This document shows positions 7,358 through 40,969 of a stretch of 64,000 bases of DNA, one piece after another. Made by a program: the position numbers and the translations under genes. Origin of the DNA: Onthophagus taurus (taxonomy: Eukaryota; Arthropoda; Insecta; Coleoptera; Scarabaeidae); contig NC_091966.1 in assembly GCF_036711975.1 (NCBI RefSeq), forward strand, positions 10,175,501 through 10,239,500, written 5' to 3'. How positions within the stretch are numbered: position 1 is the stretch's first letter; each line of letters opens with the position of its first letter. Under the pieces are notes generated by a model. It worked only from the letters and a program-made list of their open reading frames with translations. It was not told the origin of the DNA and made no database searches.

Positions 7358-7690
7358 CAGTAAAACTTCGATATAACGGATCAATACGGGGAACCCAATG
7401 TCCGTTATAGCTAAAAATAATACAACAATCTAGCGCTGAATAACAAATAAAACTAGTCTAGCACTAGCACTAGAACTAATACTAGACCTAGAACCAGAAA
7501 CATTACAAAATATCACTATGTTGCATATTTTTATTGAACTAAAACTGGAACTAACAACAGACGCAGAACTAGAATCATTCGGGTTTAGCCGTCTTAAGAG
7601 ACGTACGGCTAAACCCAAATGTTTCTAGTTCTAGGAATGCTTAACGTGCTTAATAACAATTAAAACTAGAACTAACCTAGAAAGTTTGTC
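7358..7690. mobile_element. Pogo/Tigger-like terminus with palindromic hairpin repeats (copy 3)
   Basis: Starts with CAGTAAAACTTCGATATAAC next to a TA, followed by TATAACGGA...TCCGTTATA and then the CTAGAACTA/TAGTTCTAG hairpin block (about 7440-7680). It is closely similar in order and sequence to the copy at 1937-2330, so the pogo-like end and the hairpins appear to travel as one non-autonomous unit. Confidence 0.5.
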
Positions 7691-12000: not shown

Positions 12001-15000
12001 AAAATGTGCCAGAAATTATGCGAGAACAGAAACCACAAAAACCATTCGAAAAAATTACTAAAATTATAAGTGCAGAAAACTATGCCACAGGTTCTTTTGT
12101 AATCCCTTTAGCGAATGGACTTGTTGATATTTGTGAAAAACTTTCAAAAAAATGTATCGAGGATGATTTTACAAGAAATAATCATAAAAATAAAACCTCA
12201 GCTGATTAGTCGATTTGATAATATAGAAATGTGCAATACATTAGCTGTTTCGACATTTATTGAAGAAAATTATTGTAGAATTATGCCGAAAGTGAAGTCA
12301 TCCATCTTGGGACAATTATTCCAATAGGTGCGTGAATATCCGGTATTCAAGATTGATGATAAGGTACTTTTTTGCAAAGTGTGCAACAAATCTGTGTCAG
12401 CCGTGAAAATATTGTTGGTAAAACAGCGTCTAGCAAGTTTAAACCACATAAAACTGGAGAAAACCAATAATGAGTTTATGTTTATGAATAATGTTTTCCA
12501 CATATAAATCAAAAGATGTTTAATTTGCAGAAGCTGTAGCGCATTAATTTCCGTTGATATACCCCTATATAAAATGCGCAACAAAAAAATTAGTATCGTT
12601 CCTAGAATCATACACAGAGTATCTACAAAGTATAATTGAAAAATACCCTTCGCACAAAATATGAAGGAACTTCACAAAAATACCACAGACCACATACAAT
12701 GCATCAATAGTCCCTTTTTGTGGATTTCAATCGACAGCAAGATGCAACAGGAAGATATGTGGTAAATGTCATTATTGGTATTTTGGATCATGATGAGTTA
12801 ATCGCTAAACAACAATTTTTGTTTGGTACTTGATAAAGCGAATCATAGCACTATTGCAAGGCTTTTCGATAATTCTACTAAGATTTTTGGTGAGAGTTTC
12901 AATAGAGACATGATTTTACTCTTTCTATCAGATGCTACGCCCTATATGGTAAAAACAGCTCAGACCATAGATACTTTTTATCTAAAAGTGACACACTTAA
13001 CTTGTCTTGCACACAACCTTCATTACGTCCTTAATTACCCTTAATCAACCCTTTGAAATGCCTCAATTGGTCTCAACTTGCTACCAATTAATATCCTCGG
13101 TATACTCATAACGTCTACCAAATTTGGTTTTTCTAGATTAATGTATTACGAAGATATTGAATGTTTTAAAAATTTAAGAGCCAACATTGAAGGCCTATAA
13201 CTCTTCAGGGGTAAAACTTAGTATAGAGATAAGTTGTGTTAAATCATTTTAATTTATTGTCCTCTACATGTCCGTGTTCTGTGTCAGTTCTTATGTGAAT
13301 CATCCTGTATATTGGAAACAGCTGGGCTTCCGCTCTCTACACAGGTTGATGTAGTGACATAAGCTCAGGACTTAATTAATAGCATAAACAGTGAAGCTGC
13401 TAAGTTAGTAATGAAAAAATGGTTATGGTTATTTCAAGGAGTCGTGGTTTTTCTATTTTGAAAGAAATGTCTACATGTTTGAGTAAAGGATCCACAGAAA
13501 TAACCTCAGTGAAGCACTAGCATTTAAATTTGCACCTATAACTTCAGTGGAAGTGGAATGAAGTTCTTCAATGTATAAGAATGTTTTACATGCATTCAGA
13601 CAAAGTTTCCTATTTGATCATTTAAGTGAGATATTTGTCATTTATTGTAATCACAATTTTAGGTAAATCTGTTTTAGTTTTTAATTTGTCTTTTGTATAT
13701 TGCTCAATATTTTCTGTCTTTTAGCTTTTTTAAGTCAAACTAATAAATATTATAAACCCTCTAAAATTAGGGGAAAAAATTGTTTTTCTTTAATAAATCC
13801 ACTATGGAAGAATTTGGAAGGATGAAATTTGCCAGATAACTATTACTAATAAGGTAACATTTTTTGACGATTTTTATAACCCTAATATGTTTTTACAGGA
13901 GACTGAAAAAATCAACCCCATAATACTTTGCATTAGAACTTTTTAATATATCTACATTTTTCTACTTAAAAACTTGATTTAAATAGTGGGATTCAATACG
14001 CATCTTTTTTGTCTCTTGACATTTTCTCCTAAAATTGTTAGTTTGATCACAAAAAAAATAAAATAATACAAAGGCTCAGGTGAATTTTAATTCAGATATT
14101 GGTTATTATTAGTCAAAGAAATAAAGTTATGTGAAATTGGTCACAGCATTATTGTATTTTTTGTGATCAAACTAACAGTTTGTTAGTTGTAAAATGTCAA
14201 GAGATAAAAAAGTTGCAGATTTGTACCCTTAACTGTAGAGGACTATAACTTGGAGGAGAAGAGGTTTTGACCAAAAAGGAATATGAAAGACCCCACTTAA
14301 TTTTCGTCGAAAAATCACCCCTTAAAAACTTTCGCATCAATTTAGACACACCTGTATAGTTTTAAAAACTTACTTTTGCATTTCAGTTTTCATTCGTTCC
14401 TTAATAACATCCATAGTTTCATTTGTACCATGACTTTGGTTAACAGCTTCATTATATAAGCGTTCTATTCGGACCATTTCCTACAAAAAAAAAGTAATCA
14501 GAACATTATAATAACATTATAATACTGGGAATAACAAAGAGTTTTTGATTTAAGTACCTGATTTAATTTAACTAATTTATCAACTACCACCCTAAAACCT
14601 AAATCAAAAGCTTTATGTCCCAAGAAGAAACATTCGGTAACAAAATTATAACTGGAAGCGGTCAATCGATGTTGAACTTCTTGTGAGTTTTCGGTTTCAA
14701 TTGGAACTAAACAAGTTTCTTTGGATAAATTTGTTAGATGTACCCCTTTGGTTGCGCAATGTTCCTCCTAAAATAACAAAAACAATTAATTTTTTAAACC
14801 TCTACTTTATAATTATTATTACCTCTACTGCACAATAAGTGGGGTCTACTTTTAATATTTTTGCCTCATTACCAGGTGAACAAAATGGTTGGCAAAGCCT
14901 TATAATCACCATCAACATATTTAACATATATCCATCACTAACATTATTAAAAGCAGTGGGATTTGGAAAATCAGCTGCTTGGCTGGCCCAAATTTTACCA

Positions 15001-16464: not shown

Positions 16465-17656
16465 TTAACTAAATATAATATAATCTTTTCCTTCTTGTAA
16501 GTTCAATGAATTTAAATTGTCCTCAAATACTCCATTGGTCATATCCTAGAAAAAAAAAATATAACAATAAATTAGTTAATAAGTTTTATAGGTACCATTT
16601 TAACACATATAATAATCGGTGCCTTTGCTTTTGAAAAATGAATAATTTCAATAGGTTTTTTACTTATTCTAAGGTTTAAATCAAAAGGAGTATAATATTT
16701 TCCAACTTTGTTGCTATCAACATCACATAATGCAATAACTTTCTTTTGATTCTCTTCTGATAATGACTTAAATAACTTTCGTCCTTGTTTCCCAGCATTC
16801 CATATAGTAAATTCTTTCCAATCAATTAATATTTTTTCTTGTAATCGTTTTATTCTTACATCCCAAATAATGTCTCTGAAAATATTGGAAATAAATACAA
16901 CTGGTGTATTATTTTAAAATACTTACTCATGAATAGAATGAGTTGTACAATTTGTATGATAAGTATAAGAAACTAAAACTTGATTAACCCTATGTAATTT
17001 TCCCCCTAAATCCAAGTGGTTATAAAAGAATATCAAATCTTCAGGTTCTCCTTTTACCTTTTCAGAAAAACCACCAATTTTGTGAAATATACTTCTATGC
17101 ATAAACCACGTTGGCATAATTATTGTTGGTCCATTAGAAGTAAATATTTGTACATCCAATTTATTATCATCTAAGTTGTTAGCCCAATTTGTATACCTTA
17201 CAGTTGAATTTTTGGGTTCTCTTACAATTCGTGACCCAACAATATAATTATTTGTTAATTCACTTGCTGCATTGTATTGTTCTATTAATCTATGAGGAAA
17301 CATTAAATCATCCACATCTTGAAAACACAGATATTTTCCAGTGCTTATTGAAACAGCTGAATTTTTTGATTTTCCACAACCCAAAGGTTGACCAAATGGG
17401 TGGTTAATTAGTTTAAAAGTGAAGTTATGAGATTTGAGTATGTTTTCCCAATTTGATAATAAATTTGGGGTATTATCTATACTTCCATCATTGCAAACAC
17501 ATATTTCAACATTAAGATTTGCAATTTCTTGGTATAATATACTATTAAAACATGAATCAATAAACTTTTCGCCGTTATAAATTGGAATTATTATGGACTA
17601 AAAGAGACTATTATTAATTTAAAAACTTCTTGTTAATGTTTACTTACTATATCCAT
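16465..17656 (-). CDS. B3GNTL1: B3GNTL1-like family 2 glycosyltransferase
   Basis: Probable ortholog of UDP-GlcNAc:betaGal beta-1,3-N-acetylglucosaminyltransferase-like protein 1, a GT2-fold protein whose true substrate is not settled. Four exons: 17656-17648 (only MDI), 17597-16927, 16875-16596, 16545-16465. They total 1041 nt, or 346 residues plus stop, near the vertebrate length. The GT2 domain starts at SIIIPIYNGEKF. A DVDD metal-binding motif lies near residue 93 and an acidic GEPEDL segment further on. The C-terminus holds the family-specific WNAGKQGRKL and ends in VFEDNLNSLNLQEGKDY. No signal peptide is visible, so cytosolic location is possible. It lies 380 bp upstream of UBE4A on the same strand. 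A broken copy of part of exon 2 sits at 21.56-21.78 kb. Confidence 0.92.
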
Positions 17657-19718: not shown

Positions 19719-22700
19719 TTAATCAATATTAAAAACACTCTTCTTTGATTTTGGAGCTTCTTCATTGTGGAAGTGAGATGCTGTTCTTTTTCTAAGATCA
19801 TCAATTCCTTCTTCAGTTGTAGCCCATTCCAAAACAAGTCTTCGACCGTACAAATGAGTACTTTGTGATAAAGCTTCAAATGCTTTCTAATATAAAATAG
19901 AAATATTAAAATATAAAAAGGAGTTTTTAAATTATTTTTCTTACCTTAGCATCACTTGAAGTGAAATAATCGACAAAAGCGAATCCTCTATGAGTTGTTT
20001 CACCCACGGTCATTTTTTTGGGTAATCTTAACGCCTTTATCTCGCCAAATGTTCTTTAAAAAATGGTAAAAATTAGTATCAATTTAAAAAGTCGGAAAAT
20101 AAAAAAGAATAATTACTTGAATAATTCAAAAAGTTCTTCTTTTTTGGCTTGGAAAGGAACGTTACGAACTAACAGCTTCGAACCCGTTGGTTTTCCTTTT
20201 TTCGTTACTTTACGAGTAGTTATAACGTCATTCCTAATGTAGAGAAATAAATAAGTGAAGAGAAATGATTGATGTTATTATCTTACGCTAAAGTTCTTTC
20301 CGATCGTTTTAACTCTAAAGTTTTTCCGTCTAATGAACTTCCTTGTAATTCTTTTAAAGCTTTGTTAGTACTTGATTTAAGAAAATATCGAACAAAACCA
20401 TAACCCATTGATAACTTATTTCCGGGATTATTCATATCTTTTTTCATTGTGACCATTGCAGAATACAATTTACCACAAGTTTCGAAATGCCTTTTTAGGT
20501 CCTCATCAGTTGTTTTAAAATTCAAATTTTTAACAAACAAAGTTGTATCTGGTTCAGGTTCAATAATTTCTTCTTCTTCCACTTCATTTTCTTCTTGTTT
20601 TGATTCAGAAACGTTTTCCGTTTCGCTTTGTACATTAGAATTCTCATTGTTCACATTTGTTATAGATTGATTTTTATTATTTTTGCTTAAAGATTTCGCC
20701 TGTAAACTATTTTCGGGGGCCCATTCAAGAAGAAGTGGTACACTTTTAAATTGTGAATAAGCTAACGATGAAAACGCTTTTCTAGCTTCAGTTGGTTCAA
20801 TAAATTCCACTATTGCTAAAATTAAAAAAACAAAATTAACGTATATTCTATTTTGTAAATAACATATAAAAAACTGTACCAGTTATTCCCTTTGGAGGCA
20901 AAACCACTCTACCTACAATACCATACTTTTCAAAAACTCTTCTTAATTCCACTATTTCAGTATTAGCTGGAAGATTTTTTACTAAAATAATAGTTTTTGA
21001 GCGTTTAATTGACCCCTAAAAATACAATGTTTTTTTTATTATTCATAAAACCACATTTTTTAAGTCAACAGTGATATTATTACCCCACTAAAAGCATCTA
21101 AAATAACTCCTTCAGCTTCCAAATATTTTCTGGTTTCTGTTACGATTTGTGTTTCTCCAAGGGCTAATCTAACAGCTACGTTACTTTGTCCGTGAGGATC
21201 TAAAACCGCTTTTTTACTCGTTCCATAACTTCCTGCCATTGCTTCAGCAACTGCATCATGGCCCATAAACAATGAATTCCAATTGTGTGATGATCCGGCT
21301 TGAGCTTTTTGCTTTTTTTCTTTCTGCTTTTTATAATTTATGTTTCCTAAAAATGAAAAATACAGAAGATAGGTTGAGTGATATTTACAGTCTATATTTT
21401 AAAGAACATATTATTTAACTTAATTATATTATTTAGATTATTTGGTCTGTATTATGTATAGTTAAATACTCAACGTTCTGTTACTTGCAATTTTGTTCAG
21501 CTTCATTTATGACAATACTGTCATAGAGTACTATCAGTAGATAAAGTGACCCACCAACAATATAATTATTTGCTAATTCACTTGCTGCTTTGTATTGTTC
21601 TATTAATCTATGAGGAAACATTAAATCATCCACATCTTGAAAACATAGATATTTTCCAGTGCTTATTGAAACAGCTGAATTTTTTGATTTTCCACAACCC
21701 AAAGGTTGACCAAACGGGTGATTAACTAATTTAAAAGTAATATTATGATATTTGAATACATTTTCCCAATTAAAATGTTGGGTGTTACACCTAGGTACTG
21801 AAAAATAGATGTACTTATATAATAACTTCTGTTCTAAGGTTTGAAAAGCTTAACAAGTGACTATATAAACAAATTTTATTCAAATAACAATGTACAATAG
21901 AACACAGCCACCATAGCGAAAAGGTACCCATTGTGGAGATCGTCCCATCTTTGCTGATGGGCTCACTTCAGACTGTCGAGATTCTTGTGGAGAATAGCAC
22001 TTCCTCCATTAGAATTTCATCAAGGTAGTTCTAGCCACAATAATCAATGATGATAAACGAAACCACCAACTATTTCCGAAAGCGTAATATTTCAATTAAA
22101 AAATTAATGAGATAACAAAGAACTCTGGAGAAAATGTTTCTCATTGTAGGTTTAATAACTAGATATTACTATAAAAACAATCTAGATATAATTTATAGAC
22201 AGGTACACTAACAACAGTTATTATAAAATTTCTAAATATTTATAATAAAAATCAAAAATAAATTATACTTTACCTTCTTCTTCATTTTCTTGAACGTCCT
22301 TTGCTTTTCCAGGAAGTAAATGAAGCATTCGCCCATGCAAAATTGAACCATCCAATTCAGAATACGCTTTTACAGCATGTTCTGGCAACAGAAAAGTTAC
22401 AATACCAAAACCTTTCATTTTGCGTGATGTGGAATCAATTGGCAAGTTTACTTCTGTTATAGGACCTAAAATAAGTAAGATAAATTAGATAATACAGCAT
22501 TTTAATAGTAACATCTCACCATAAGCTGCAAATAGATTTTGAACATCATCTTCTGTTGTAATATACGCTAAATTTCGAATAAATATCCTCCCAGATTCTC
22601 CAATATCTTCCTCATTTTTTAATTTTTCTTCTTGGGATTTCCATTTGACTTTCTTAGGATCTTGTGCGTCATCTCCTTTATTTGTTGGATCTATATGCTT

Positions 22701-23762
22701 AGTTACAGATATGCTTTTCCCGGATAATATACTACGATCTTTCATTAAACCTTTCTTCATTTGCCTCTCATTTTTAAATCCAACAAAAGCTATACCTTTA
22801 ATATTTCGTGGGATTCTTATAGAAAACGGAATATTTGGTTTAAAAAATTCTTTTATGTCTTTCTTTTTACATTTATAGGGTAAGTCTTTCAGCTACAAAT
22901 AAAAAAATTTAAATTGTATCTAAAGATAGGAATTAAATCACCTTTAAATTGAATAATTTTAAATCTTTTTTTTGTTTTTGTTTCTTTTCTTGTTTAATCT
23001 TAGATGTATCCACTTTCTCTTCATTTTCATTTATATCATTAGTTGGTTCAGAAACTCCTGAATCAGATGAATCGTCACTTTCATCATCACTATCTTTTTT
23101 TGTCCTTAAATTATTTAATAATTCAATTTCATGGGGTGCATGAACTTGAAGGTATTCTTCAAATTGGGGATCATCTTTATACTATAATATAAATATTAAG
23201 ACTTAAATCACCACTTAATAACTAAGTAATTAAAATAACCTTTTTTAAAATTTCAGCTTTTTTATCATCCTTGTTCAATTTCTTTTCACTTTTTTTATTA
23301 TCCTCTTTCTTTTTCTTTAATTCATCTTGAATTGTTTCAGGATGTAATTTCTTATAAGCTGAACTATCAGCAGAATATTTACTCCAAGATTTTGGTTTAG
23401 CAACATCACCTTAATTAATCGAAAATGAAATTTAAAAAAATAAGATAAAAGATTAAAAGGAAATTACCTAAAGCTGCGCAAGCTTCAACAACAATTGTAT
23501 TAGTTTGTATACAGGTATTATTAAAATGCTTAATAGCTTCTTGTGCTTCTTTTTCAGTTTGATACCCCAAAAAAGCAAATCGTCTAAATGTTCCTTCAGA
23601 TGTATATTTTAATTGAACATCGGTTAATAAACCTCTTTCTCCAAAAATTTTGCGAATTTTTTCTTCGGTAATCTAAAACATTCATTCTGTTTATATTAAT
23701 ATTATTAAAATTATTGAATAAGTTACCTTTTTAGGTAGATTTTTAACAATTATACGTGACAT
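19719..23762 (-). CDS. RBM19: RNA-binding protein 19 (RBM19 / Mrd1), ribosome biogenesis
   Basis: Nucleolar protein with six RRMs, the homolog of yeast Mrd1, which is needed for pre-rRNA processing in the small-subunit processome. Twelve exons: 23762-23727, 23672-23468, 23409-23240, 23181-22942, 22892-22520, 22465-22274, 21346-21084, 21015-20880, 20815-20287, 20233-20117, 20053-19945, 19886-19719. Sum 2538 nt, or 845 residues plus stop. RRM1 is near residues 2-76, RRM2 near 218-285, RRM3 near 320-395 (RNP1 KGFGIVTF), RRM4 near 503-575 ([11 protein letters not shown]), RRM5 near 625-705 (GYGFVRYF) and RRM6 near 735-815 ([10 protein letters not shown]). The linker before RRM4 has the family signature [13 protein letters not shown]. 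The C-terminus [14 protein letters not shown] is typical. Intron 6 (21347-22273) carries a B3GNTL1 exon fragment. Exons 1-2 are duplicated at 28.0-28.28 kb. Confidence 0.95.
21556..21780 (-). pseudogene. B3GNTL1 exon 2 fragment inside RBM19 intron 6
   Basis: Minus strand matches 17239-17460 of B3GNTL1 almost base for base, including the residues [18 protein letters not shown], with a few substitutions (for example N to K and T to A). Similarity ends abruptly on both sides. There are no flanking exons, and it lies within an intron of a gene on the same strand, so it should be spliced out as a dead duplicate. It carries no intron sequence or poly-A tract that would show how it moved. Confidence 0.85.
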
Positions 23763-24490: not shown

Positions 24491-24878
24491 TCGTGTGGGG
24501 GTGACTTCCTTCATAGTACTTAGGCCCAGGGAGCCGTAACAGCCTCACTTCAGAGTTCGCTCCAGACTACTCCCATTTAAGAGACAAAAAAAATTTCAGA
24601 TTGAATCCCTCTACTTTAATCAAGTTTTTAAATGAAGAAATATAGGTGCATTAAAAAGTTCTGATGCAAAGTATTATAGGGGTTGATTTTTCACCCCCTT
24701 GTAATAATATTTTAAGGTTACAAAAATCGTGTATAATAATTATATATGAATTAATCAAAAACTCATTCAAAAATGTATAAACTTCATGTATTGAAAAAAG
24801 TACATACAAAAATAGAATTAGAACTATTGAGTGTATTAACAATATTAATAAATAAACAGATTATAAAAATGAAACTCT

Positions 24879-27487
24879 TCAATTTCTAGATACAATAGCT
24901 TTTAAATCCACATCAGAAGTTTCATTTTTAATGCAAACTTGCAGCTTACCTACTTCATCTTGCATTCTCGTACATCTAACTATTATTACAGCAAATTTAT
25001 CGCTAGATACAACACCATTGGGCGGAGACACTGTAAAACCTTCAGTTGCAATAACTTTAAACCTTTCAGGAGTTTTACTTTTTGATTGGATGATAATTCT
25101 ATCATGTATTTTAGATGGTAAGGAAAATAGGATACGGTTCGGATCGACTGTAAATAATCTATTAGATTTATTAAATTCATTTTCATCCTGTATTGTCGTA
25201 CTATCTTGATAAAGAGTTTTAAACATAGTAGAATCATTAAAGAAACTGCTGTGCATTTCCATAGTAACATTTGGATTCTTTTCAATATTTACATGTATTT
25301 GTTTCACTGTTATGCATTTCAAAAGATCATAAATTGAAGTTGATGTTTCTTCAATCAGTATACCCAAATCTCTTGGAGTATCTTCACCAGGAAGCTGTTT
25401 AGATAGACTTTTAATTGTTTTATTAATGTTTTCATTTTTTTGTGATAGTATACTGCACAATCTTCTTATTCTTGCACGATCTACTTCTGCTCCCGATATA
25501 AACTTAAATGATCCTACATTGATAATATCATTTTGTGATTTATAATCTTCTGTTTTTGGACTATACATTATTGTTACTTTAACTTCTTGTTGTGGTTTTA
25601 AAACCATTTCCATTGGATTAATTTTCACATTAGTTGATTTTGGCATTAATCCATTGTTTTCTAATTCTATTATAGCGAACGCAGACAAAACACCAGTATT
25701 CTTTATGGAAAATTTTTGGATTATTGGTGCGCGATCAAAAACACCCATTGACAACCAAAAATGACCATTAGAGACTTTAAACATTTTAGTTAAATCTACG
25801 GAAATATGTCCACCATATCCAAATAATCTTATTGTTTGTTTTAATTTTTTACTATCTGAATTAGAACAGGGATAGAAAACCACTTTGTCTGATATCGCTC
25901 CAATTTTAGATGGTTGAAAAATAACCGTTAAAGTTTTAGTTTCATATGCATGAAGAGTAAAATCCAGTGTTGTTAATACTTGAGATGCATTGCCTTCTTT
26001 AATAAGTTTAAAATTTGATCCAACCACCGAAACTTCTATGGGTATCTTTTGATGCAATTGATTTTGGATTTGAAACGATTGGGATTGAGTACGTCCCATT
26101 TTGACACAGCCCCAAACAATTTCTACTTTACTTCCTTTAATTGGTAATTGTCCATCGGGTAGAGAATTCAGATAACTTGGATATCTTGAACCCATTGATG
26201 AATCACATCTTCCATTTACATATTCATCTTGAAGCGAAGAATCTTCACTTTCCATACTACTTACACCAGAATCTCTTAGTTTAAATGGTTCGACTGTCAA
26301 AGTCCGTACGGTACTTCTAGAACTATGACCCATTTGGGATGAAGAACATTGTTGGAAAGGTGTTGACGTAAAAATGATGTCATCGTATGACGAACTTTTG
26401 CTTCTTCCGCGTGCTGTTGGAATTTGGAGACTTTGTTGTGTTTGAGCTGCTAAAGAGTTTTGAGATATACTCTGTGCTTGATATTCATTGCAATCGTATT
26501 GTGTTGATGATGAACCACGACTTCCGCTAATATTTTCCTTATCTTTAACTGAAGAAGCTGTAGACAGTTTTGAGCAGTATCCTAAATTTGAATTAGCTTC
26601 ACTTCGCACACTTCTAACATTAAAATCTTTAAAATGGTATGGTTCAACTGTCAAAGTTGATATACGAGATGATGAATAACGCGGATCATCACATGGGCTT
26701 GTACTTTTTCTACGGGTGGTTGGTACGTGGAGAGCCCGTTCTGTATTTCTAGAGCTATGCCCCATTTGAACTGAAGAACTTTGTTGGAAAGGTGTTGATG
26801 TAAAACGAATATCATCGTATGACGAACTTTTGCTTCTTCCACGTTCTGTTGGAACTTGCAGACTTTGTTGTGAAAGCTTGGAAGCATGCTGTGCTTCGAC
26901 TGTAGAATATGTTTGAGCTGCTGAAGAATTTTTAGATAAACTCGGTGTTAGATATGCATTGCAATCGTATTGTGTCGATGATGAACCTCGTCTTCCGCTA
27001 ACATTTTCCTTCTTATCTTTAACTGAGGAAGCTGTAGACAATTCTGAGCAGTATTCCAAATTTGAATTAGTTTCAAATCGCACACTTCTTACATTAGAAT
27101 CTCTGGACTTATACGGTTCAACTGTCAAAGTTGATATACGAGATGATGAATAACGAGGATCATCACATGGGCTTGTACTTTTTCTACGGGTTGTTGGTAC
27201 GTGGAGAGCCCGTTCTGTATTTCTAGAACTATGCCCCATTTGGATGGAAGAACTTTGTTGGAAAGGTGTTGATGTAAAACGAATATCATCGTATGACAAA
27301 CTTGTGCTTCTTTCACGTTCTGTTGGAACTTGCAGACTTTGTTGTGAACGCCTGGAAGTATGGTGTGCTTGGGCAGTGGAATGTGTTTGAAATGTTACAG
27401 ATTTTTTAGGAAAACTCTGTGCCATGTAATCATTGCAGTCGTTCTCTTTCGATGGTGGGTTTGCCGATTTTGAACGTCTTTGATCGG
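24879..27487 (-). CDS. Spd-2/Cep192-like terminal exon, proximal copy A
   Basis: Encodes 869 codons from the splice acceptor TTTTCAG|CCGATCAAAG to the stop. The apparent ATG at 27506 lies in the intron, and MLLIFS is an artefact of reading through the acceptor. The N-terminal half is Ser/Thr-rich and holds two full and one partial copy of a ~157-residue repeat (for example SYDDIRFTSTPFQQ and DDPRYSSSRISTLTVEP). The C-terminal half is the SPD-2/ASH region (EIVWGCVKMGRTQSQSFQIQ, LFGYGGHISVDLTKMF). The exon has no stop or frameshift and is the paralog of the exon at 28753-30584. No spd-2 5' exon lies between the two copies. The nearest upstream exons on this strand are the duplicated RBM19 exons 1-2 (28283-28001), whose phase fits. 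Joined, they total 2838 nt, or 945 residues plus stop. It may instead be spliced to the spd-2 exon at 34399-35434, or be untranscribed. Confidence 0.8.
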
Positions 27488-27589
27488 CTGAAAAGATCAA
27501 CAACATTAATAATAGAAAAAACTACATTGCAAGAGGTTGAAGACGAATTAGCGGCGAATGCGCAAAGAGAAGTCTGAAGACGAATATCT

Positions 27590-27935
27590 AGACGAAATTT
27601 TAGTGACACTATCACTAGAACTAACACTAGAACTAGGATCATTCGGATTAGCCGTCTTGAGAGACATGTGGCTAAACCCGAATGTTTCTAGGTCTAGTGT
27701 CAGTTCTAGTTTTACACTAGCACTATCACTAGAACTAACACAAGACCTAGAACTAGAATCATTCTGGTTTAGCCGTGCGTCTCTTAAGACGGCTAAACCT
27801 GAATGTTTCTAGTTTTACGTCTAATGTTAGTTCTAGTTTTAGTTCAATAAAACTATGTTGCAGCTAGACCTAGTCTTGAGAGACGTATGGATAAATCCAA
27901 ATGTTTTTAGTTCTAGGTCTTGTGTTAGTTCTAGT
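27590..27935. repeat. Palindromic TAGTTCTAG hairpin repeats (copy 4)
   Basis: Three or more hairpin arms of the CTAGAACTA/TAGTTCTAG family with ATTCGG...GGCTAAA centres, the same family as at 2.0, 4.7 and 7.4 kb. They lie exactly at the junction between the two tandem copies of the RBM19-spd-2 segment, inside the intron of the proposed chimeric gene. Confidence 0.6.
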
Positions 27936-28000
27936 ATTTCATTGCCCACTGCCTGTAAGGGAAATAGAAGAAATTACGAGAGAAAGAAAGAAGAAATTAC

Positions 28001-28283
28001 CTAAAGCTTCCACAACAATTGTATTAGATAGTATACTGGTATTATTAAAATCCTTAACAGCTTGTTTTGCCTCTCTCTCGGATTGATACACCAAAAAAGC
28101 AAATACAAATGTTCCTTCAGATGTATGTTTTAATTTAACATCCGCTAATAAACCTCTTTTTCCAAAAATTTTGCGTATGTTCTCTTCGGTAATCTAAAAG
28201 ATTGATTCTATTTATATTAATATCACTAATATTTTTGAATAACTTACCTTTTTAGGTAGATTTTTAACAATTACACTCGACAT
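28001..28283 (-). CDS. Duplicated RBM19 exons 1-2 (first RRM), possible 5' end of an RRM-Spd-2 chimera
   Basis: Exon 1' is 28283-28248 (ATG, 12 codons, [12 protein letters not shown], then GTAAGT). Exon 2' is 28193-28001 (64 codons plus one base, ending TTTAG|GTAATT). Compared with the parent at 23468-23762, exon 2' has lost 12 nt in two places (3 and 9 nt), so the frame is kept. The parent upstream sequence (GTTAGGT...) is copied as well, so a promoter may be present. There is no RBM19 exon 3 downstream. The next acceptor on the strand is that of the Spd-2-like exon at 27487, and phase 1 matches. The RNP1 core has changed (parent RRFAFLGY, here FVFAFLVY), losing both arginines, so RNA binding may be weakened. 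If untranscribed, this is simply a pseudogene fragment. Confidence 0.6.
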
Positions 28284-28752
28284 CTTAGAAAAGCTTTAAG
28301 TTGAAGGTTAGGTGGAAGACTGGCATGTGAAAAATGTGGGAACAAACTGGTTTCAAACTAGTTTTAGATTATTTGTGTTCTCTTAAAAGAAAACATTTTA
28401 TAGGGAAATATTATTATAAGTGTATCTAGGGATTAAAACCAAGTTAAATAAATTTAAAAAGCCAAGTTTTTGATCTCTACACACTTCACATTCACTTTAG
28501 GACAGTTTCTCCTACAGTTCAGTTTTTCACAATACATAAATCAAAAAAAATGTGAAATTAAACAATAAATACAAGTTTTATGACAGTACTTCTCTTTTAA
28601 ATGGGTTACACTATCCATGAATTAAACAACAACTCATTATAAAATATAAAAACATCATGTATTGAAAAAATAGTACAAAATACAAAAATATAATTAGAAC
28701 TAATGAGTGTAATAATATTAATAAATAGACATATTATAAAAATTTAAGAAAC

Positions 28753-31700
28753 TCAATTTCTAAGTACAATAGCCTTTAAATCCACATCAACAGTTTCATT
28801 CTTAATGTAAACTTGCAGCTTACCTACGTCATTTCGCATTTTCGTACATGTAACTGTTATTACAACAAATTCATCGCTAGATACAACACCATTGGACGGA
28901 GACACTTTAAAACCTTCAGTTACTGTAACTTTAAACTTTTCAGGAGTTTTACTTTTTGATTGGATGAAAATAGTATCACTTTTTTTAGATGGTAACGAAA
29001 ATACGATACGGTTCGGATCGACTGTAAATAATTTATTAGGTTTATTAAAGTCATTTTCATCTTGTATTGTCGTACTGTCTTGATAAAGAGTTTTAAACAT
29101 GGTAGAATCATTGAAGAAACTGTTGGAGATTTCTAAAGTAACATTTGGATTCTTTTCAATGTTTAAACGAATTTGTTTTGCAGTAATGCATTTCAAGAGA
29201 TCGGCAATAGAAGATGTTCCTTCATTTAGTAGACCCAAATCACTTGGAATATCTTCACCAGGAAGCTGTTTAGATAATCTTTTAATTGTTTTATCAATGT
29301 TTTCATTTTTTTGTGGTAGCATACTGCATAATCTTCTTATTCTTGCTCGAACAACTTCAGCTCCTGATACTAATTTAAAAGATCCTACATCGATAATTTC
29401 ATTTTGAGATTTAAAATCCTCTTTTTTTGGGGTATACATTAATGTTACTTTAATTTCTTGCTGTGGTTTTAAAACCATTTCAATTGGATTAATTTTCACA
29501 TTAACTGATTTTGACATTAACCCATTGTTTTCTAATTCTATTATAGCAAACGCTGACAAAACACCAGTATTCTTAATAGAAAAATTTTGGATTATTGGTT
29601 TATGATCCAAAGCACCCATTGAAAACCAAAAATTTCCATTAGAATCCTTAAACATTTTAGTTAAATCAACCGAAATATGTCCACCATACCCAAATAATTT
29701 TATTGTTTGTTTTAAACTTTTGATAACATCTGAATTAGAACAGGGATAGAAAACCAGCTTGTCCGATATAGCTCCTATTCTAGTTGGTCGAAAAATAACC
29801 GATAATGTTTTAGTTTCAAATGCATGTAGAGTAAAAACCATTGTTGTTAACATTTCGGATATGTTGCCTTCTTTAATAAGTTGAAAATTCGAGCCACCCA
29901 CCGAAACTTCTATGCGCACCTTTTGGTTTAATTGATTTTGAATTTGAAACGATTGCGACTGACTCCGTCCCACTTTGATACAGCCCCACACAATTTCTAC
30001 TTTATTTCCTTTAATCGGTAATTTCCCTTCAGGTATAGAATCCAAGCTACTTGGACATCTAGAACCCATTGACGAACCACATCCTCCGTTAACATTTTCT
30101 TTGCTACCTTTAATTGAAGAAGCTGTAGACACTTTAGAGCTGTATCGTAAATTTGAATTAGCTTCACTTTCCATAGTTCTTACACCAGAATCTCTGGAGT
30201 TATGAGAGTCTACTGTTATAGTTGGTATGTGAGATGTTGAACATCGCGGATCATCATATGGACTAGTACTTTTTCTATGGGCATTTGATACGTGGAGAGT
30301 TCGTTCTGTATTTCTGGAACTATGCTCCATTTGGATTGAAGAACTTTGTGAAAAAGGTGTTGACGAAAAACAAATGGCATCATGTGATGGACTTTTGCTT
30401 TTTCCACGTACGGTTGAAACTTGGAGATGTTGTGGTGAACGTCTAGAAACGTGATGTACTGGGACTGTAGAATGTGTTTGAACTGCTAAAGAATTTCTGG
30501 ATAAATTCTGTGCTAGATATTCATCGCAATCGTATTCTTTTGATGGTGCGTTTGGTGATTTTGATTTCGGGCGTCTTTGATCGGCTGAAAAGATCAATAA
30601 CATTAATAATAGGAAAAAACTGTGAACAGTACAATATTTTTGATATTGATAACATAAACATACTAATAATATACATCGTACACGCGATTTATAACAATAA
30701 ATAACAATTCGGCAATTCCTTAATTCAGCAATAATTACTTAAAAGCGTAATTAAAGATGGATTTTAACACCTGCGCTAAATAACGGCACAGTAAAACTGA
30801 ATCTTACTTCGGAACAAAAGTACAGAGAAGCATCAAAGATACTGAAAAGAATTTGACCTGGTCCACTTATGAAAATAAGTAAACCAGAAATCTGAAAGTG
30901 GTAGCTAAAAAGATGCATAAAAGCTGTGATATTAATGATATCAAAGATGAACTATTGGAGCCCAATTGTTAACATACAAAACAAAAAAGCCTCTTCTTTT
31001 ATACATCTTGGATTTTGCACCATCAGAAGATGTAAAAAGAATCCATGAATTAACAAACATATAAGGATTGCTTGTTAAAATCGAAGAGTACAGATAGCCA
31101 AAACAAATGCCCCAGTGCAAAAGGTGTCAGCTTACTGCCTCAAAAATCCGAGGTGTGGTAAATGCGCTGGTGAACACTGGACCAGCTTATGTACTAAAGC
31201 CATAGAAATCCCGGCTAAATGTTTCAACTGTGGAGAAAATCATCCAGCGAACTGCCAAGGATGCATTGTGATTAAGGAACTACAAGCCATCAGGAATAAG
31301 AAAAAAGTAAATTCAAATAAAAGAAAGTCCGGCGTCTCGTATGCCGAAAAAGCGAGTGATGCAGCTGTATATAAAACTGTAAGTACATTAGTCGATAAAA
31401 AGGCTGACAATGAATACTAGAAAAAATATTTCAACAAGAAGAAACTGAAATCAAAAGAAATCAAAATATCCAAAAAGCAGCAACCACAACTATTAGTACT
31501 GAAGAACATCAAACTACAGTGGTAATAGTTCAAACCGCTAATGGCTTAATATCTGTAGCAGCAACGTACATACCGCCGAGACAAAATCTCAAAAGAAAAG
31601 ATTATCAGGAAATTCTACTGCATCTTGAAAACAAATTTATACTTGGAGGAGGCCTTAATGCAAAATATATGTCTTGAGATTCTTGCTTGACAAATACAAA

Positions 31701-34700
31701 AGGAAGAGAACTGAAACATGCAATAGAGGCCCTAAATTGTGAGGTGCTCTCCACTGGTAAGCCAACTTACTAGCCAACAGATAGAAGTAAAATTCCGAAA
31801 CTGCTTGATTTTTTTTTTTACAAAAATATATCGCTTAACTTCGTAAACATAGAAGAAGAGTTAGGGCTGAACTCAGATCACTCACCAGTAATTATTACTT
31901 TAAATAACAAAGTATGTAACAAAGAACCCTTTTTACCAGTAACCGATATATTTACTAACTGAAATCTATTTCAACAAACATTAGATAATAAAATTTATCT
32001 TAATGCTTTATGAAAACAAACAACAAGACATTGACAGGGAAGTAGAAAAGTTCTTAAAAGACATACTAAAGTCAGCCTCGGCCTCAATACCTATTTTAAC
32101 CCAAAACCTAAATCTAACATTTATCCTAAATTCATTACAGATAAAATTGCAGAAAAACGGAAAGCAAGAAAGAAATGGCAATCCAACGGAATTCCTAGTG
32201 ATAAAACTAAATTAAATAAAATAACAACCGAATTAAGAACATTAACAGACAGCCACGAATAAAATAATATTCAAAAAGATCTTACTGACGGTGCCAATAC
32301 TGATTGTTCTCTGTGGAAGCCAACAAGAAAGTTTAAAGTTCCCAAAACACATACACCTCCAATTCGAAATAGTAATGGAAATTGGACTAAGAGCTATCAA
32401 GAAAAAATTAATTTGTTTGCTGAACATCTGAAAGAAACAACTACATCAGACAGTCCAACAACTATGTTAGTGTTTCTAGCATAATTCAAAGTGATCAGCA
32501 GAGTAATATACCATGTGTAAGAATGAAAGAACTGTATTATAAAATACAAAAACTAAATATAAAGAAATCAGTAGGCTATGACCTAGTTAATGGAGAAACA
32601 TTTACCAAAACGGCCGATTACAAAACTATTACACATATATAATTTTTAGTTTATGGAGGCTTTGGTATATTTTATTATAAAAATTGTGACATCATTCCCT
32701 CCTTTATTTCTAAAACTCCAATTATAACGACGTTTCGGGAAATGTTCCCATCATCAGGTTAATAATACTCTTATATTAAACTTAAAACTATCCATTAATT
32801 CCTGTTTCACCAGATTGAACATCATTACATCTTTATTCCTCATCTCTATCCTCTTTATTTCATGGATTCTTGTGAAATCGTATTTAAGTTACTTCGTTTT
32901 TAAGTTTAATATAAGAGTATTATTAACCTGATGATGGGAACATTTCCCGAAACGTCGTTATAATTGGAGTTTTAGAAATAAAGGAGGGAATGATGTCACA
33001 ATTTTTATAATAAAATATACCAAAACCTCCATAAACTAAAAATTATAGATTAAAATATGGAAGACACAAGAATCCATGAAATAAAGAGGATAGAGATGAG
33101 GAATAAAGATGTAATGATGTTCAATCTGGTGAAACAGGAATTAATGGATAGTTTTAAGTTTAATATAAGAGTATTATTAACCTGATGATGGGAACATTTC
33201 CTGAAACGTCGTTATAATTGGAGTTTTAGAAATAAAGGAGGGAATGATGTCACAATTTTTATAATAAAATATTACACATAATTAATGCTGCTTTTAAACA
33301 CAAATGCTTTCCAAGTATATAGAAAGTTGCTGAAATAATAATGATACCAAAACATGATTATTACGCTTATTATCAAAATTACTTGAAAATTAAAAAGACT
33401 AAAACCTGTGATAGAAGAAAAAGCCCTCACATCAACACATCAATTTGTGTTTCAGAATAAACATGGAACAATACACCAAGTGCATAGGCATAGAATAACG
33501 AATACTATCGAAATAGCAATGGAAGAAAATAAAGTCTGCTCTGCCATATTTTTGGCCCATCACTGTAATTACTCTACACATTCGAACTTCCTCAGATACC
33601 AGAAACTTTAACAGTTACATTCGCAATTGACACAGCGATCTTGGCTGTTGCAGAAAATGAAGTAGTTGCAGCAAATAAGTTACAATTGGCCTTAAATTCA
33701 ATAGAAAACTGGACCAAACGATGGCTAATAAAACTAAATACAAATAAATCGACATACATAAACTTTACTTATAAGATAAGAAAGTAAACTATGTCCCAGT
33801 ATACATAAATGGCAATGCAGTCCCGTACGCCGACACCGCAAAATATCTTGGTATGACGCTGGATGCCAAACTCAAATGGAAAGGTCACGTCAAAAAAGAA
33901 AAAAGAACATGAGGAACAAGATCATGTTGCAAACAAGTTGCTAATACACAAGCAAGTATTAAAACCAAAATGGACATACAGAATCCAACTGTGGGGTTGT
34001 ACCTCCAAGTGGATGATATCTTGAAAATATTTTAGATCGAATGTTCCGAATGAACAACCCATGCTACCAAAATTTCAAATCTCTATGAATAGTGGCACCT
34101 GAAAAAGTTCTAACAAACCAGTTATGTGAGACACCTGTATAAGAAACACCGACCTCCATCGCGACTTGGAAATCAGAAATTGCATCATTCGCATCTAAAC
34201 ATGAGAAGAGAATCCCAACATCGACGCCATCCAGCTTCTTGACAACGAGAATGTCCTGCGTCGCCTTCAGAGGATGAAACCATTTGATAATAGAGAGATG
34301 GGACCAACATTTCAATGCTACACAACTTTCTGATAATTAATTACTAAATTAATAATAATAATCAATTAAATTAGTATTATTATTAAGTATTAACTTACAT
34401 TTTTTTAATAATTTATCAACCATTTTGCCTGGGGAATCAACATCAACATCGGCCAACATCTTCTGAATCTTTGTAAGACTTAATACAGAACTATCGTCGA
34501 TTGGTCCTGGTTTCTTAAATGTTTTATTATCTACCTTATAGCTGTCAGAAGGATAAATATTAGAAATACGGGTGCTATCAATTAACGGAGTTGGTGAATG
34601 TGATCGTTCTGGACTTTTTGACCTAAACAAATCACCCAAATCGTTTTTACCACGAGTTTCAAAGAAATTTCCAATTGAATGTTTGCCGGTTACTGTAGAA

Positions 34701-35434
34701 AACGATGAAGTACTGTTCCTTTCAGCTGGAATATCTCTTTGTTTCCTCCAAGAGACTTCGTCCCTCTTTAATTGTTCGCTCATCAATTCTGCTGGTGTAA
34801 AAACTTGACTTTCAAGACCAGACACTTGTTGACCCATCAAAGATTTACAAAGACTAGCTCGATACTGTAATTGAGAGCAAATATCTTGAATATTAATATC
34901 GGAATGTCGTAATTGTTCAGACATTGCTGTTATATTATCAAACATTGAAACTTCTTTTTTGTCTGATTTTTCTACATGTTCTGATGTTCTTGGAGTAGAT
35001 ACGTTCCCCGGGTAAAATGATTGTGAATTAACCGAATCTTTTCTTATTAAATCACTTTCATTTACAGTGCTAAAATCTTTAACATAATTACGGGAGCTTT
35101 CTTGCAATACGGAATTTTGTTGAAAATATTTTGATGGTAATCCAACAGTTTTACTGGCTTTATTCAGCAAACTTTTCGCCAAATTTCTTTGTGTTTGTAA
35201 CCTGTTCATCACATCTTCACCATTACCAGATTCTGAATAAGTTGTTACGTTCATTTCTATTGGATTTAAAATCCCTAAACTAGCTGCCGATTCGTCTAAT
35301 GTCGCAGAATTAAATTCAAGAGGCTTACGGGCAGGAATTTGATTCCCAGTATGCGGTTTTTTGGTTATAGTAGAAGTAGCTGTCGGTTTAGGGGTTGTTG
35401 CTAAACTTTCTTCAAAATAATCTTCGGATTTCAT
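28753..35434 (-). CDS. spd-2: Spd-2 (CEP192 homolog), centrosome assembly protein
   Basis: Centriole and pericentriolar scaffold protein that recruits PCM and mitotic kinases. Two exons: 35434-34399 (345 codons plus one base, ending AAAAAAT|GTAAGT) and 30584-28753 (after TTTTCAG). Together 2868 nt, or 955 residues plus stop, a little shorter than the fly protein. The first exon is Ser/Thr-rich with no clear fold and is assigned by adjacency and phase match, so it is less certain than the second. The second exon has one copy of the ~157-residue low-complexity unit, then the SPD-2 ASH region from EIVWGCIKVGRSQ (about residue 545) through LFGYGGHISVDLTKMF (about 650) to the C-terminus. The 3.8 kb intron is filled by a broken LINE and a Penelope-like insertion. 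The same first exon could also splice to the proximal exon at 27487. Confidence 0.85.
32729..32757 (-). ncRNA. Candidate hammerhead ribozyme core 1
   Basis: Minus strand carries CTGATGA, stem II GGGAA/TTCCC with a three-base loop, GAAA, then CGTC. Flanking TAAC and GTTA can form stem I. Stem III would be only ACGT, which is self-complementary, as expected of hammerheads that work as dimers. Confidence 0.5.
32928..32956 (+). ncRNA. Candidate hammerhead ribozyme core 2
   Basis: Same core as the minus-strand copy at 32729-32757: CTGATGA, stem II GGGAA/TTCCC, GAAA, CGTC, with TAAC/GTTA for stem I. A single unpaired T between CTGATGA and stem II departs from the ideal G-C closing pair. Confidence 0.5.
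33182..33210 (+). ncRNA. Candidate hammerhead ribozyme core 3
   Basis: Third copy of the same core. One C to T change in the 3' side of stem II leaves a G-U pair, so the fold is still possible. Confidence 0.45.
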
Positions 35435-36479
35435 CGTACAACAAATATACTTATACAGTTTAACACTTTAAAGATTAGTTTTAAAATTGATAAATACTGG
35501 TATGTTATAGTTTAAAAAACGGCGTTATATTATCGTTAAAATGTATGGCATTTAACATTAAAAAAATAGGAACTGGAAACAGAAGAATGTAGTGCCAACT
35601 TAAAAATTTCAATAAAGGTTTCAAAAATTTATTGGAAAGAAAATTATAATCTTTTTAAAACTATTTACATTTTGTTTATTTATTAAATTACTTATTTTTG
35701 TGTTTACTAATTGAATCATAAATATATACCTTGATATAAAATTATTGTAGGAAATATTATTTATATTGCCAACATTAAAAAATCAAAATACGATTTAAAT
35801 TCCTTAGCAAAATCTTAATTAAAGATTTATAACCACCTATTTTTGAATCTGATTCTTGTATACAGAAGAGATTATGAACTATTAATGCGGTGTTAATGTT
35901 CAAATAAAGGAACCTCTAGTTGGTAAGTCTGAAATTTGACAATTAACTTTTAACCGCCTTTTTGCCTTTATGTCAATCCGCAAGTTTTAGAGGTTAGAGT
36001 AAAAATAATACCTTTTTTCTGTTTTGATATTTCAATTTTGTGTATATTAAATCATTCCTTTTAGAAGCAACACTCGAAATGAGATTAAAGATTGCGGGAT
36101 TCAATTATATTCGCACGGATTATTTATGCCTAATTTAAAATTTTCTATAAACTATTCCATTTCAAGTTCAAATTGAGTTTCAAAAGGACTTGGCAAATGC
36201 AATTACAAATATTTTGCAAGGAAATAACTGAGAAAATTTGTCTGAAACAGAGTACAGAATTCAAAACTTAGAAAATATAACTGAACAATATTCTAAAAAT
36301 GAATATAACTAACTGTAAAAGGTTAATAGCTGCAATTCAAAAGCTCAACACCTCTATTTTAAACATGGAGAATCACCTTTTCAGTTTACAATATTGCTTA
36401 TTACCAAGTATTAAAGATTGTTTTGTTATATTATTGAATGAAAATTTGATGTTGTAAATTTGATTAGTACCAATTTAAA
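35435..36479. other. Upstream flank of spd-2; nothing recognised
   Basis: AT-rich with no supported gene. It presumably includes the promoter of the leftward spd-2 gene. Confidence 0.4.
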
Positions 36480-38640: not shown

Positions 38641-39076
38641 ACGCATGAATTTATTACAATCACATTTGTTTTAGACACTTATTTGTATGTTATTCTAATT
38701 ATGAATAACTGTTAGATATTAATTCATCTCAGTCACATCATATATCATTGAGTTTTATTTAATTTATTTTTTGTTGATAGATGTTAGACGTTTATCTAAT
38801 AGTGTCATGAAGTTGAGTGGAGGCCACCTCATTTTATTTTTGTAAATCAAGTATGTATTGTTCATAATAATAACACATAATTCGTTGACATTAGCACGTA
38901 CACATCAAAATTATGAAGTGTTCTTCTGTGTAAGTGTTTTTCTTGTAGCTTCTATGTAAATGTAAGTATCATTTCTAAAATATATAAAAGCATAAATCCG
39001 TACGATTCCTAAAATAAATTCGTTTTTAGTTTCATAATTTTAGTCGGTTCTCCAAAAAGAACAAAAAAATTCAATA
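38641..39076. other. Upstream flank of the coiled-coil gene; nothing recognised
   Basis: AT-rich spacer. Likely promoter and 5' leader of the gene starting at 39077. Confidence 0.4.
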
Positions 39077-40969
39077 ATGAGTGATATAGCAAGCATCCCA
39101 GTGGCTCTCCCCGCATTGGAATTCATCATGACTACTCAACATCAACCTCGGCATTTAACAAACACTATGAGCGCTCCACTGCCAACTTTGCTTCCACGTC
39201 CGGCTATCGTAAGTGGTGATGGTTTACTGCCACATGATAGATGTGGATTAATGAGTAAATTGGATACGGATTCCGAAGAAGATTCGATAAGTGAAACAGG
39301 AAATAAGGTAATGAAGAACGAAATAAATATGTCGAGAACTTTGGGATTGAAAAAACGAATTAATAACGAAGATATTAAACAGAAATTCCTTAATTTGGAG
39401 AACGAACACAAAAAAATTCACACCCAAATCAAATCACTACAAAATAATTTAATGAAACGAGATCAGGCGGTTAATGAATTATCATTGGAAAATACGGAAT
39501 TAAATAAAAAATATGAATCTTTAATCGTTGATATAAATCAGAAAAATTGTCACCTTATTGAATATGCTACCATCAATAAAACCTTAGAAAAACAGTTGGA
39601 AAAGAAAAATGTAGAACTCAATCAATTACACGTAAAATGTGATAAATCTGAACAAATAAAATCAAACCTAATTAAAGATATTGAATACTATAAAACAGAA
39701 CTTCATCATTTAAAAGGACAAAAAGATCATCTTAGAGATTTTGAAGAATTGAGAAAAAAGTACAATGAAATTAAACGAGACAACATTAAATTAGGCCAAA
39801 AGTTTCGTGAATTAAAGAACAGCGACGCCGAACATCAACAAAAAGCTTTAAGTTATAGTGTTCTTTCAAAAAAATTTGAATTACTTCAAGCTGATATCAT
39901 TAAGTTTCGAATGGAAAATAAACGTTTAAAATGTAAACAATTTTCAATCGAGCAAGATTTAATTTCTCACCAACAATTACATAGTTCTTATAAATCAATA
40001 GAAAACGAAAATGCCGCTTTAAAAGAAAGCATAGCAAACGGGCAATCAATTGACGCTCAACTTCAAGCCGAATTAAGTAATTTACGTAAAGGTAAAGAAC
40101 AGTTAGAAAAAGAAATTAAAATTAAAGATGAAATTATTAATGAATTAAAAGATAAAGTTGGTACAACTACAGATGCGGTTGAAAGTTTAAAAAATACTTG
40201 TTCTTCCACCGAAAAGTATGCCGAACTTTTATCCGAACAAATTAATACTTATAAATTAAAATGTGAAGCTTTAGAAGCGGAATTAATTAAATTCCAAGAA
40301 AGTAAAAACGATTCATCTGCCGAGGTTCAAGCTTTAAAAGAGGAAGTGAAAAAATTAAAAATACGATTAGGACAAATGTTGATTGATAAAGATGATCCAG
40401 GAATTCGAACAGTATCGCAATCCCAAACTTCTCAAACCGAGGACGAAGATGATTGTATAAATTGTCACTTTTTACGACAAGAAATTGAAAAACTAGGATA
40501 CGCCAATTTACGTTTACATAAGGAAAAACTGAATTTAAAAGCGAACTTTCAAAAACTAAGCGTTAAAACATCCAAGTTGGAAATAAAAATGGAAGAACTT
40601 TCTGCGGATAAAAAGCTTCCAAGTACAGTTTCCGTAGTTAATAGAAATAACGCTAAAGAAGTTGTTCAAAAAGAAGTTATTATACAACAAAACTTAATGT
40701 TAACGAAAAAATTAAAAGATGTAATCGAAAATTATGATAAACTTCTGAAAGAGTATATTTTATTGCAACAAGACAAGATTCCTACGGCTTCACAGGTTGA
40801 ATCTAGCAGTATTTTTCAAGAACTTCAAGAACGGATTAGTAGTTCGCAAATTGCCATCACATCTATCGAACATAAATTAAATGAGGAGGAAGGGAAATTA
40901 CACGCCTCTATGTACCATCTACGGTCGGTTAAAAATAAACTAAGTGAACGTAAAATGACTTTAAAGTAA
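39077..40969 (+). CDS. Single-exon coiled-coil protein of unknown identity, 630 residues
   Basis: I do not recognise this gene. The first ~85 residues are Pro/Ser-rich and then acidic (DTDSEEDSISETGN). From about residue 90 nearly to the end the protein is a long, Lys/Glu-rich coiled coil with heptad leucines, broken by an acidic Ser/Thr/Gln patch and a CxxC pair (QTSQTEDEDDCINCHF, about residues 450-465). There is no signal peptide or membrane segment. Start: the upstream sequence ATTCAATAATGAG gives a plain Met-Ser start with no earlier in-frame candidate noticed. Such proteins are often centrosomal, Golgi or motor adaptors. The neighbours spd-2 and asp make a centrosome or spindle role an attractive guess only. 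An AATAAA lies 63 bp past the stop. Confidence 0.85.
   Translation: MSDIASIPVALPALEFIMTTQHQPRHLTNTMSAPLPTLLPRPAIVSGDGLLPHDRCGLMSKLDTDSEEDSISETGNKVMKNEINMSRTLGLKKRINNEDIKQKFLNLENEHKKIHTQIKSLQNNLMKRDQAVNELSLENTELNKKYESLIVDINQKNCHLIEYATINKTLEKQLEKKNVELNQLHVKCDKSEQIKSNLIKDIEYYKTELHHLKGQKDHLRDFEELRKKYNEIKRDNIKLGQKFRELKNSDAEHQQKALSYSVLSKKFELLQADIIKFRMENKRLKCKQFSIEQDLISHQQLHSSYKSIENENAALKESIANGQSIDAQLQAELSNLRKGKEQLEKEIKIKDEIINELKDKVGTTTDAVESLKNTCSSTEKYAELLSEQINTYKLKCEALEAELIKFQESKNDSSAEVQALKEEVKKLKIRLGQMLIDKDDPGIRTVSQSQTSQTEDEDDCINCHFLRQEIEKLGYANLRLHKEKLNLKANFQKLSVKTSKLEIKMEELSADKKLPSTVSVVNRNNAKEVVQKEVIIQQNLMLTKKLKDVIENYDKLLKEYILLQQDKIPTASQVESSSIFQELQERISSSQIAITSIEHKLNEEEGKLHASMYHLRSVKNKLSERKMTLK

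Follow-up and report, generated by a model that had tools for sequence, protein, structure and literature searches.

A putative RRM–Spd-2 chimeric gene at an old partial tandem duplication in Onthophagus taurus

Introduction

Can a partial copy of one gene, placed upstream of a copied terminal exon of its neighbour, supply that exon with a start and join it in a single gene? The question is raised by a locus of Onthophagus taurus (Coleoptera, Scarabaeidae) within the window analysed here, a stretch of 64,000 nucleotides (nt) of contig NC_091966.1 (assembly GCF_036711975.1, positions 10,175,501 to 10,239,500) with a GC content of 32%, in which a copy of the first two exons of the ribosome-assembly gene RBM19 (exons 1' and 2', encoding one RNA recognition motif, RRM) lies beside the second of two terminal exons of the centrosome gene Spd-2 (exons A and B). 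An earlier note, written from the DNA letters, had proposed that the copied RBM19 exons and exon B make up a new chimeric gene, and had suggested a comparison of nonsynonymous and synonymous divergence (dN, dS and their ratio, omega) for both halves. Our follow-up confirmed the structural observation and partly supported the interpretation: exon B is clearly under purifying selection and kept as working protein code, and we consider it fairly probable that exons 1' and 2' and exon B form one fused gene encoding 945 residues. All features of the locus are on the minus strand, and positions are counted from the first letter of the window.

The route to such a gene, tandem duplication with exon joining, is already known. 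Sdic, a tandem gene family in Drosophila melanogaster, arose as a chimera of neighbouring genes through tandem duplication; it was built from other genes, is species-specific and is tandemly repeated, whereas the RRM–Spd-2 locus concerns RBM19 and Spd-2. In Drosophila yakuba, according to the portion of the study cited here, up-regulation was seen in 24 of 76 chimeras formed by tandem duplication, compared with 5 of 66 duplicates of whole genes (PMC5460883), a precedent that agrees with the route put forward in the earlier note. For fly Spd-2, the cited part of a 2025 study reports that centriole targeting lies in the N-terminal half and scaffold building in the C-terminal half, which on its own binds in the pericentriolar material only at a very low level (PMC11922060). 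In a limited search, the titles and abstract openings among the open-access matches listed described no RRM–Spd-2 fusion.

Results

Read along the minus strand, the locus comprises an open frame that ends in a phase-1 donor, Spd-2 exon A (28753–30584), RBM19 exons 1' and 2', Spd-2 exon B (24879–27487) and the parental RBM19 gene (from 23762). Comparison of the sequences shows that a single Spd-2 terminal exon, the intergenic region and RBM19 exons 1 and 2 were duplicated together. The two units extend from about 30621 to 28001 and from 27523 to about 23468, close to exon borders, and each parent gene contains a breakpoint. Homologous blocks pair 30621–28617 with 27523–24746 and 28400–28004 with 23881–23480, and the matches between the two units (1492 nt at 86% identity and 402 nt at 82%) are far above chance, which bears out the earlier description of RBM19 exons 1 and 2 copied beside a second Spd-2 terminal exon. 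Homology continues about 8 bases beyond the exon 2 donor, and the unit ends just inside RBM19 intron 2. At its other end the unit begins some 37 nt before the Spd-2 acceptor, so that the pyrimidine tract was copied too; the last 36 nt or so of the intron of the proposed chimera (27488–28000, between the exon 2' donor and the exon B acceptor), with this tract and CAG, share homology with the acceptor of exon A. Most of that intron, its middle, consists of a dispersed repeat with copies at about 2027–2330, 4655–5026 and 7458–7635. The duplicated interval from the exon A stop to the exon 1' ATG (28284–28752) holds the 3' flank of exon A and the presumed promoter of the RBM19 copy. Between the matched blocks the parental RBM19 flank (24745–23882) is several hundred bases longer than that of the copy (28616–28401), and part of the extra sequence, at 24579–24691, is repeated at 13907–14017.

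The two copies have diverged considerably, with an identity of 72–74% in the flanks and 85% in the 54-nt intron 1, and with a dS of 0.385–0.517 across most of the Spd-2 exon and 0.288 across the RRM exons. Given the large dS and the flank identity, the duplication looks old, and to call the chimera a new gene, as had been done, is doubtful. Both parents were kept, as exon A is intact and RBM19 exons 1 to 3 are open in the parental copy, where exon 1 (23727–23762) begins with the ATG at 23762 and exon 2 (23468–23672) aligns with exon 2'.

The reading frame of the proposed chimera is complete. Exon 1' (28248–28283) has 36 nt, or 12 codons, from the ATG at 28283 to a GTAAGT donor; exon 2' (28001–28193) adds 193 nt with the remainder of the RRM; and exon B contributes 2609 nt, or 869 residues and the stop. 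Exon 2' ends in phase 1, the phase in which exon B opens and in which exon A also opens after the donor at 34399, and the joined 2838 nt have a single stop, at the end, precisely as the earlier note had calculated. Its statement that the ATG and the donors survive with indels of 3 and 9 nt only was equally well founded: the codon alignment of exons 1' and 2' with the parental exons has in-frame gaps of these two lengths and no others, and the donors and acceptors of the chimera exons are GT and AG. The exon 1' donor reads AAG/GTAAGT, compared with AAG/GTAACT in the parent, and is thus nearer to the usual donor consensus. Gap length is a multiple of three for both gaps in the RRM exons, against two of the eight (one of them at an alignment end) in the two aligned flanks. 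A simple rule (AG preceded by at least 10 pyrimidines in 15 positions and at least 40 nt from the donor) finds ten acceptor-like sites in the intron, among which that of exon B alone opens a long frame (869 codons), the other nine leading to a stop after 1 to 63 codons.

Coding selection on exon B is evident from its comparison with exon A. By maximum likelihood, omega was 0.295 over 609 codons and 0.268 (dS 0.385) when restricted to the 421 codons that begin with the Spd-2 domain and run to the exon end; in the first 298 of these 421 codons it fell to 0.197 (dS 0.517), and omega 0.5 was rejected, with twice the log-likelihood difference (2dlnL) at 19.6. A mean omega of 0.5 corresponds approximately to a frozen exon A and a neutral exon B, and its rejection therefore places exon B itself under constraint. 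Over the 421 codons, changes at the first, second and third codon positions numbered 38, 45 and 76, a third-position excess. Besides, exon B has not evolved faster than exon A: at 58 residues that differ between them, gapped columns excluded, the honeybee Spd-2 domain (SP2D) agreed with A at 12, with B at 9 and with neither at 37 (binomial P 0.66 for equal rates). Under neutral decay of exon A at 0.10, 0.15 or 0.20 substitutions per site, the frame remained open in none of 4000 runs at each value, and the 1269-nt domain part alone was open in 5.2% of runs at 0.05, in 0.4% at 0.10 and in none at 0.15 and 0.20. The earlier assertion that the 869-codon Spd-2 part carries no disabling change holds.

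Exons A and B each match Pfam Cep192_D4, D5 and D6 above the cut-offs; in exon B, Cep192_D4 (94.5 bits, cut-off 35.5) and Cep192_D5 (48.9 bits, cut-off 27) represent two consecutive ASH domains. Compared with three solved structures, exon B was closest to the honeybee Spd-2 domain (9fh8), with 133.9 bits (E 5.8e-38) against 51.6 and 33.3 for the others; 9fh8 is entered under A. dorsata in the cited part of PMC11922060. Motif 1 (LXGYGG) occurs as LFGYGG in both exons. Motif 2 (GDEXXR) is altered to GAEVDR in B and GAEVVR in A, keeping Glu and Arg, and the change of Asp to Ala most likely predates the duplication because Ala is present in both. The hydrophobic pair involved in self-contact (F1090 and W1098 in the bee) aligns with Phe and Trp in both B and A. 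An AlphaFold prediction of exon B with A as its only partner (two sequences) reached a pLDDT of 38.9, too low for use. A Ser/Arg-rich unit of about 158 codons occurs once in A, whereas B (26148–27443) has it three times in frame, twice in full and once in part; omega among the internal units of B (NG86, three pairs) was 0.55, 0.66 and 0.64, values too noisy to be read alone. A search for relatives of the exon B Spd-2 domain in genome contigs from a collection that is not animal gave 33 pattern matches and one weak match in a bacterial assembly (41 residues, 43% identity), which was judged irrelevant.

For the RRM exons, omega was 0.385 (dN 0.111, dS 0.288, 76 codons), with a 2dlnL of 3.9 against omega 1. 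The ATG, three splice dinucleotides and the open frame would be kept neutrally with P values of 0.17, 0.10, 0.05 and 0.02 at 0.08, 0.11, 0.145 and 0.19 per site, respectively, figures that exclude the evidence from both gaps being multiples of three. The copy scored 50.6 bits against RRM_1 (49.4 with part of exon B), compared with 57.7 for the parent and a cut-off of 20.7. Neutral variants given the same two deletions scored lower: with 18 changes the mean was 28.2 and the maximum 43.0 bits, the copy exceeding all 19 variants, and with 14 changes, four being allowed to the parental branch, the mean was 35.7 and the maximum 48.2, the copy exceeding all 20. These scores are the strongest sign of selection on the RRM half, and they support, but do not settle, that the copied exons have preserved the RRM fold.

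The change of RNP1 described earlier, from RRFAFLGY in the parent to FVFAFLVY in the copy, was found as stated. It removes the basic residue at position 1, a named feature of RBD1, and the glycine at position 7, which is RBD1-specific and conserved (PMC3440411, cited in part). Both RNP1 aromatics (F at positions 3 and 5) are kept, as is RNP2 (VIVKNL) with the lysine at position 4, another named RBD1 feature in the same part of that work. In yeast Mrd1, replacement of the RNP1 aromatics of RBD1 was functionally tolerated (PMC3440411), which means that RBD1 may not depend on them. As for the altered role proposed for this RRM, the residues lost and kept fit weakened or altered RNA binding rather than loss of the fold.

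On the far side of exon A, the candidate Spd-2 N-terminal exon (34399–35467) is a stop-to-stop open frame up to the phase-1 donor at 34399. The frame at 34349–35467 had no Pfam or NCBIfam match and a single PDB match, which at E 0.87 was dismissed as chance; with neither a family match nor a significant structure match, its Spd-2 label rests on position and phase. The presumed Spd-2 intron contains, at 32635–33272, a perfect 208-nt inverted repeat and an overlapping 153-nt pair (99%) that resemble a mobile element. The remaining parental RBM19 gene, exon 3 onward, occupies 19719–23409, where RRM_1 matched four of seven open frames tested and a glycosyltransferase fragment accounts for one of the three that did not match. 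This 218-nt fragment, at 21554–21771 inside the RBM19 gene, is 93.6% identical to 17236–17453, part of a family 2 glycosyltransferase frame, and lies between frames with RBM19 RRMs; it is a second partial duplication in the region. Elsewhere in the window, a 641-codon open frame at 39044–40969 is rich in coiled coil by eye and had no Pfam match above cut-off. Finally, 47655–52847 and 60358–62349 encode a protein with CH and IQ domains, which we presume to be Asp, and a protein with a weak match to the INCENP ARK-binding domain (E 0.041, below the cut-off), so that three mitosis genes, with Spd-2, perhaps lie within about 38 kb.

Discussion

The arrangement of the locus suggests how an RRM–Spd-2 gene could have arisen and what its product would be. 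A partial tandem duplication produced the order Spd-2 with exon A, RBM19 exons 1' and 2' with exon B, and RBM19; the copied RBM19 start region would drive the transcript, and the donor of exon 2' would pair with the acceptor of exon B. This join needs no exon skipping, because the RBM19 copy, with its copied start region, provides the nearest phase-compatible upstream exons. The predicted product would run from one diverged RRM through the Ser/Arg-rich repeat region to the C-terminal ASH domains of Spd-2/CEP192. By construction it would keep the scaffold-forming domain without the N-terminal centriole-targeting half, and it should therefore be able to contact Spd-2 scaffolds and unable to locate centrioles alone. 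We infer transcription, splicing and function of the chimera. Its most likely role would be to modulate Spd-2 scaffolds or to serve them as an alternative partner, with its RRM end and its RBM19-type promoter governing where it is placed or how it is regulated.

Each half combines likenesses to its source with clear departures. Like Spd-2/CEP192 as described in the cited part of PMC11922060, exon B combines the two-ASH Spd-2 domain with a third ASH-like domain and keeps both motif 1 and the F...W contacts; unlike it, the chimera would carry an RRM where the centriole-targeting half belongs, and Ala replaces the Asp of motif 2. Likewise, the copied exons share with RBD1 of RBM19/Mrd1, as far as the cited part of PMC3440411 goes, the same start, the RRM profile match, the RNP2 lysine and the RNP1 aromatics, and differ from it in the loss of the basic position 1 and glycine 7 and in having no further RBDs or linkers.

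Several results weigh against a working RRM–Spd-2 fusion. While the dN/dS comparison suggested earlier places exon B under constraint, the omega of 0.385 in the RRM exons is compatible with a neutral copy (2dlnL 0.3 against omega 0.5), and changes by codon position (14, 4 and 9) lack a third-position excess. The profile test assumes that at most 4 of the 18 changes are parental, and with 14 changes the copy stands only 1.9 standard deviations from the neutral variants. A BLOSUM test of the RRM changes gave a borderline P value of 0.041 that was not robust: it rises to 0.086 if the most conservative change is counted as parental, and to 0.20 if the two most conservative are. Parts of exon B are also less constrained: in the N-terminal 188 aligned codons of A and B, omega was 0.349 and 0.5 was not rejected (2dlnL 2.5), with changes by position of 48, 44 and 50 and no third-position excess, and in the last 123 aligned codons (24882–25250 against 28756–29124) omega was 0.745, with a dS of 0.146 compared with 0.517 upstream. 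This last stretch is possibly a gene-conversion tract, after which the protein changed faster around the third ASH-like domain. Viral contigs, from a collection that is not animal, contained no relatives of the exon B Spd-2 domain, and the collections searched, neither of them animal, yielded no related genome that shares the arrangement. At the acceptor-like site that ends at 27953, 13 of the 15 preceding positions are pyrimidines, compared with 11 of 15 at exon B; this site would define a 48-nt intron followed by a stop after four codons, and could divert exon 2' into that early stop.

The main rival to the fusion takes exon B as a second, alternative end of Spd-2: from the donor at 34399, splicing would reach either A (at 30584) or B (at 27487) and so give two Spd-2 proteins that differ in their C-termini, with RBM19 exons 1' and 2' as a relic or minor alternative start. 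That donor is also in phase 1 and fits B, selection on B is silent about which 5' exon it uses, and omega leaves the constraint on the RRM exons unproven. Such a transcript would nevertheless have to skip A, read through the 3' end of A and pass the copied RBM19 start and exons, nor would this reading explain why the gaps of exons 1' and 2' are in frame and why these exons have retained their splice sites and their RRM profile score; on balance we find it unlikely. Still harder to accept is an exon B that starts from its own ATG, at 27506 or 27425, under a promoter in the repeat-filled intron and yields just the C-terminal part of Spd-2, with the RBM19 copy separately giving a short RRM-only product via 27952. 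The frame of B is indeed open upstream to 27521 and includes both ATGs, and the pyrimidine-rich site at 27953 would end the RRM product promptly. However, the intron implied is short, the ATG at 27506 sits within the acceptor tract, a tract that A also has, and two unrelated new transcription units would be required where one ready-made splice suffices.

Two further explanations do away with a working exon B or with the duplication itself. Exon B might have been silenced recently or never expressed, its frame being open by chance or only lately dead, to which the weakly constrained stretch at its 3' end would correspond; yet the absence of open frames in 4000 runs, the omega below 0.5 and the rates equal to those of A point to selection for most of the time since the duplication, and make this highly improbable. 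An assembly artefact, in which collapsed or mis-joined haplotypes mimic a duplication, deserves almost no weight: the evidence is limited to the window itself, but the copies differ by about 12–28% depending on the part, and by separate insertions and repeat numbers, far beyond what alleles would show.

The fusion of RBM19 exons 1' and 2' with exon B therefore stays our preferred reading, and it may be set beside the chimeras described in Drosophila yakuba. As in those, a duplication that ignored gene borders attached the 5' part of one gene to the 3' part of its neighbour; in contrast to them, in the part of that study considered, chimeras segregating in a population sample and seen in RNA (PMC5460883), the locus in O. 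taurus is old, bears the mark of coding selection and was examined here at the DNA level. The tandem-duplication chimeras in the work cited here are young and their expression is known; at this locus the Spd-2 half has long been under coding selection. More tentatively, and with considerable doubt, the fusion may be a long-preserved gene of an insect lineage in which an altered RRM replaces the targeting half of Spd-2 and couples scaffold assembly to RNA or to a new protein partner, perhaps in one particular tissue such as the germline. If transcribed as proposed, the gene would provide a natural test of a Spd-2 domain cut off from centriole targeting, whose role in that state is a question remaining from the 2025 fly study (PMC11922060, cited in part), and it would point to a possible tie between an RNA-binding fold and the centrosome scaffold.

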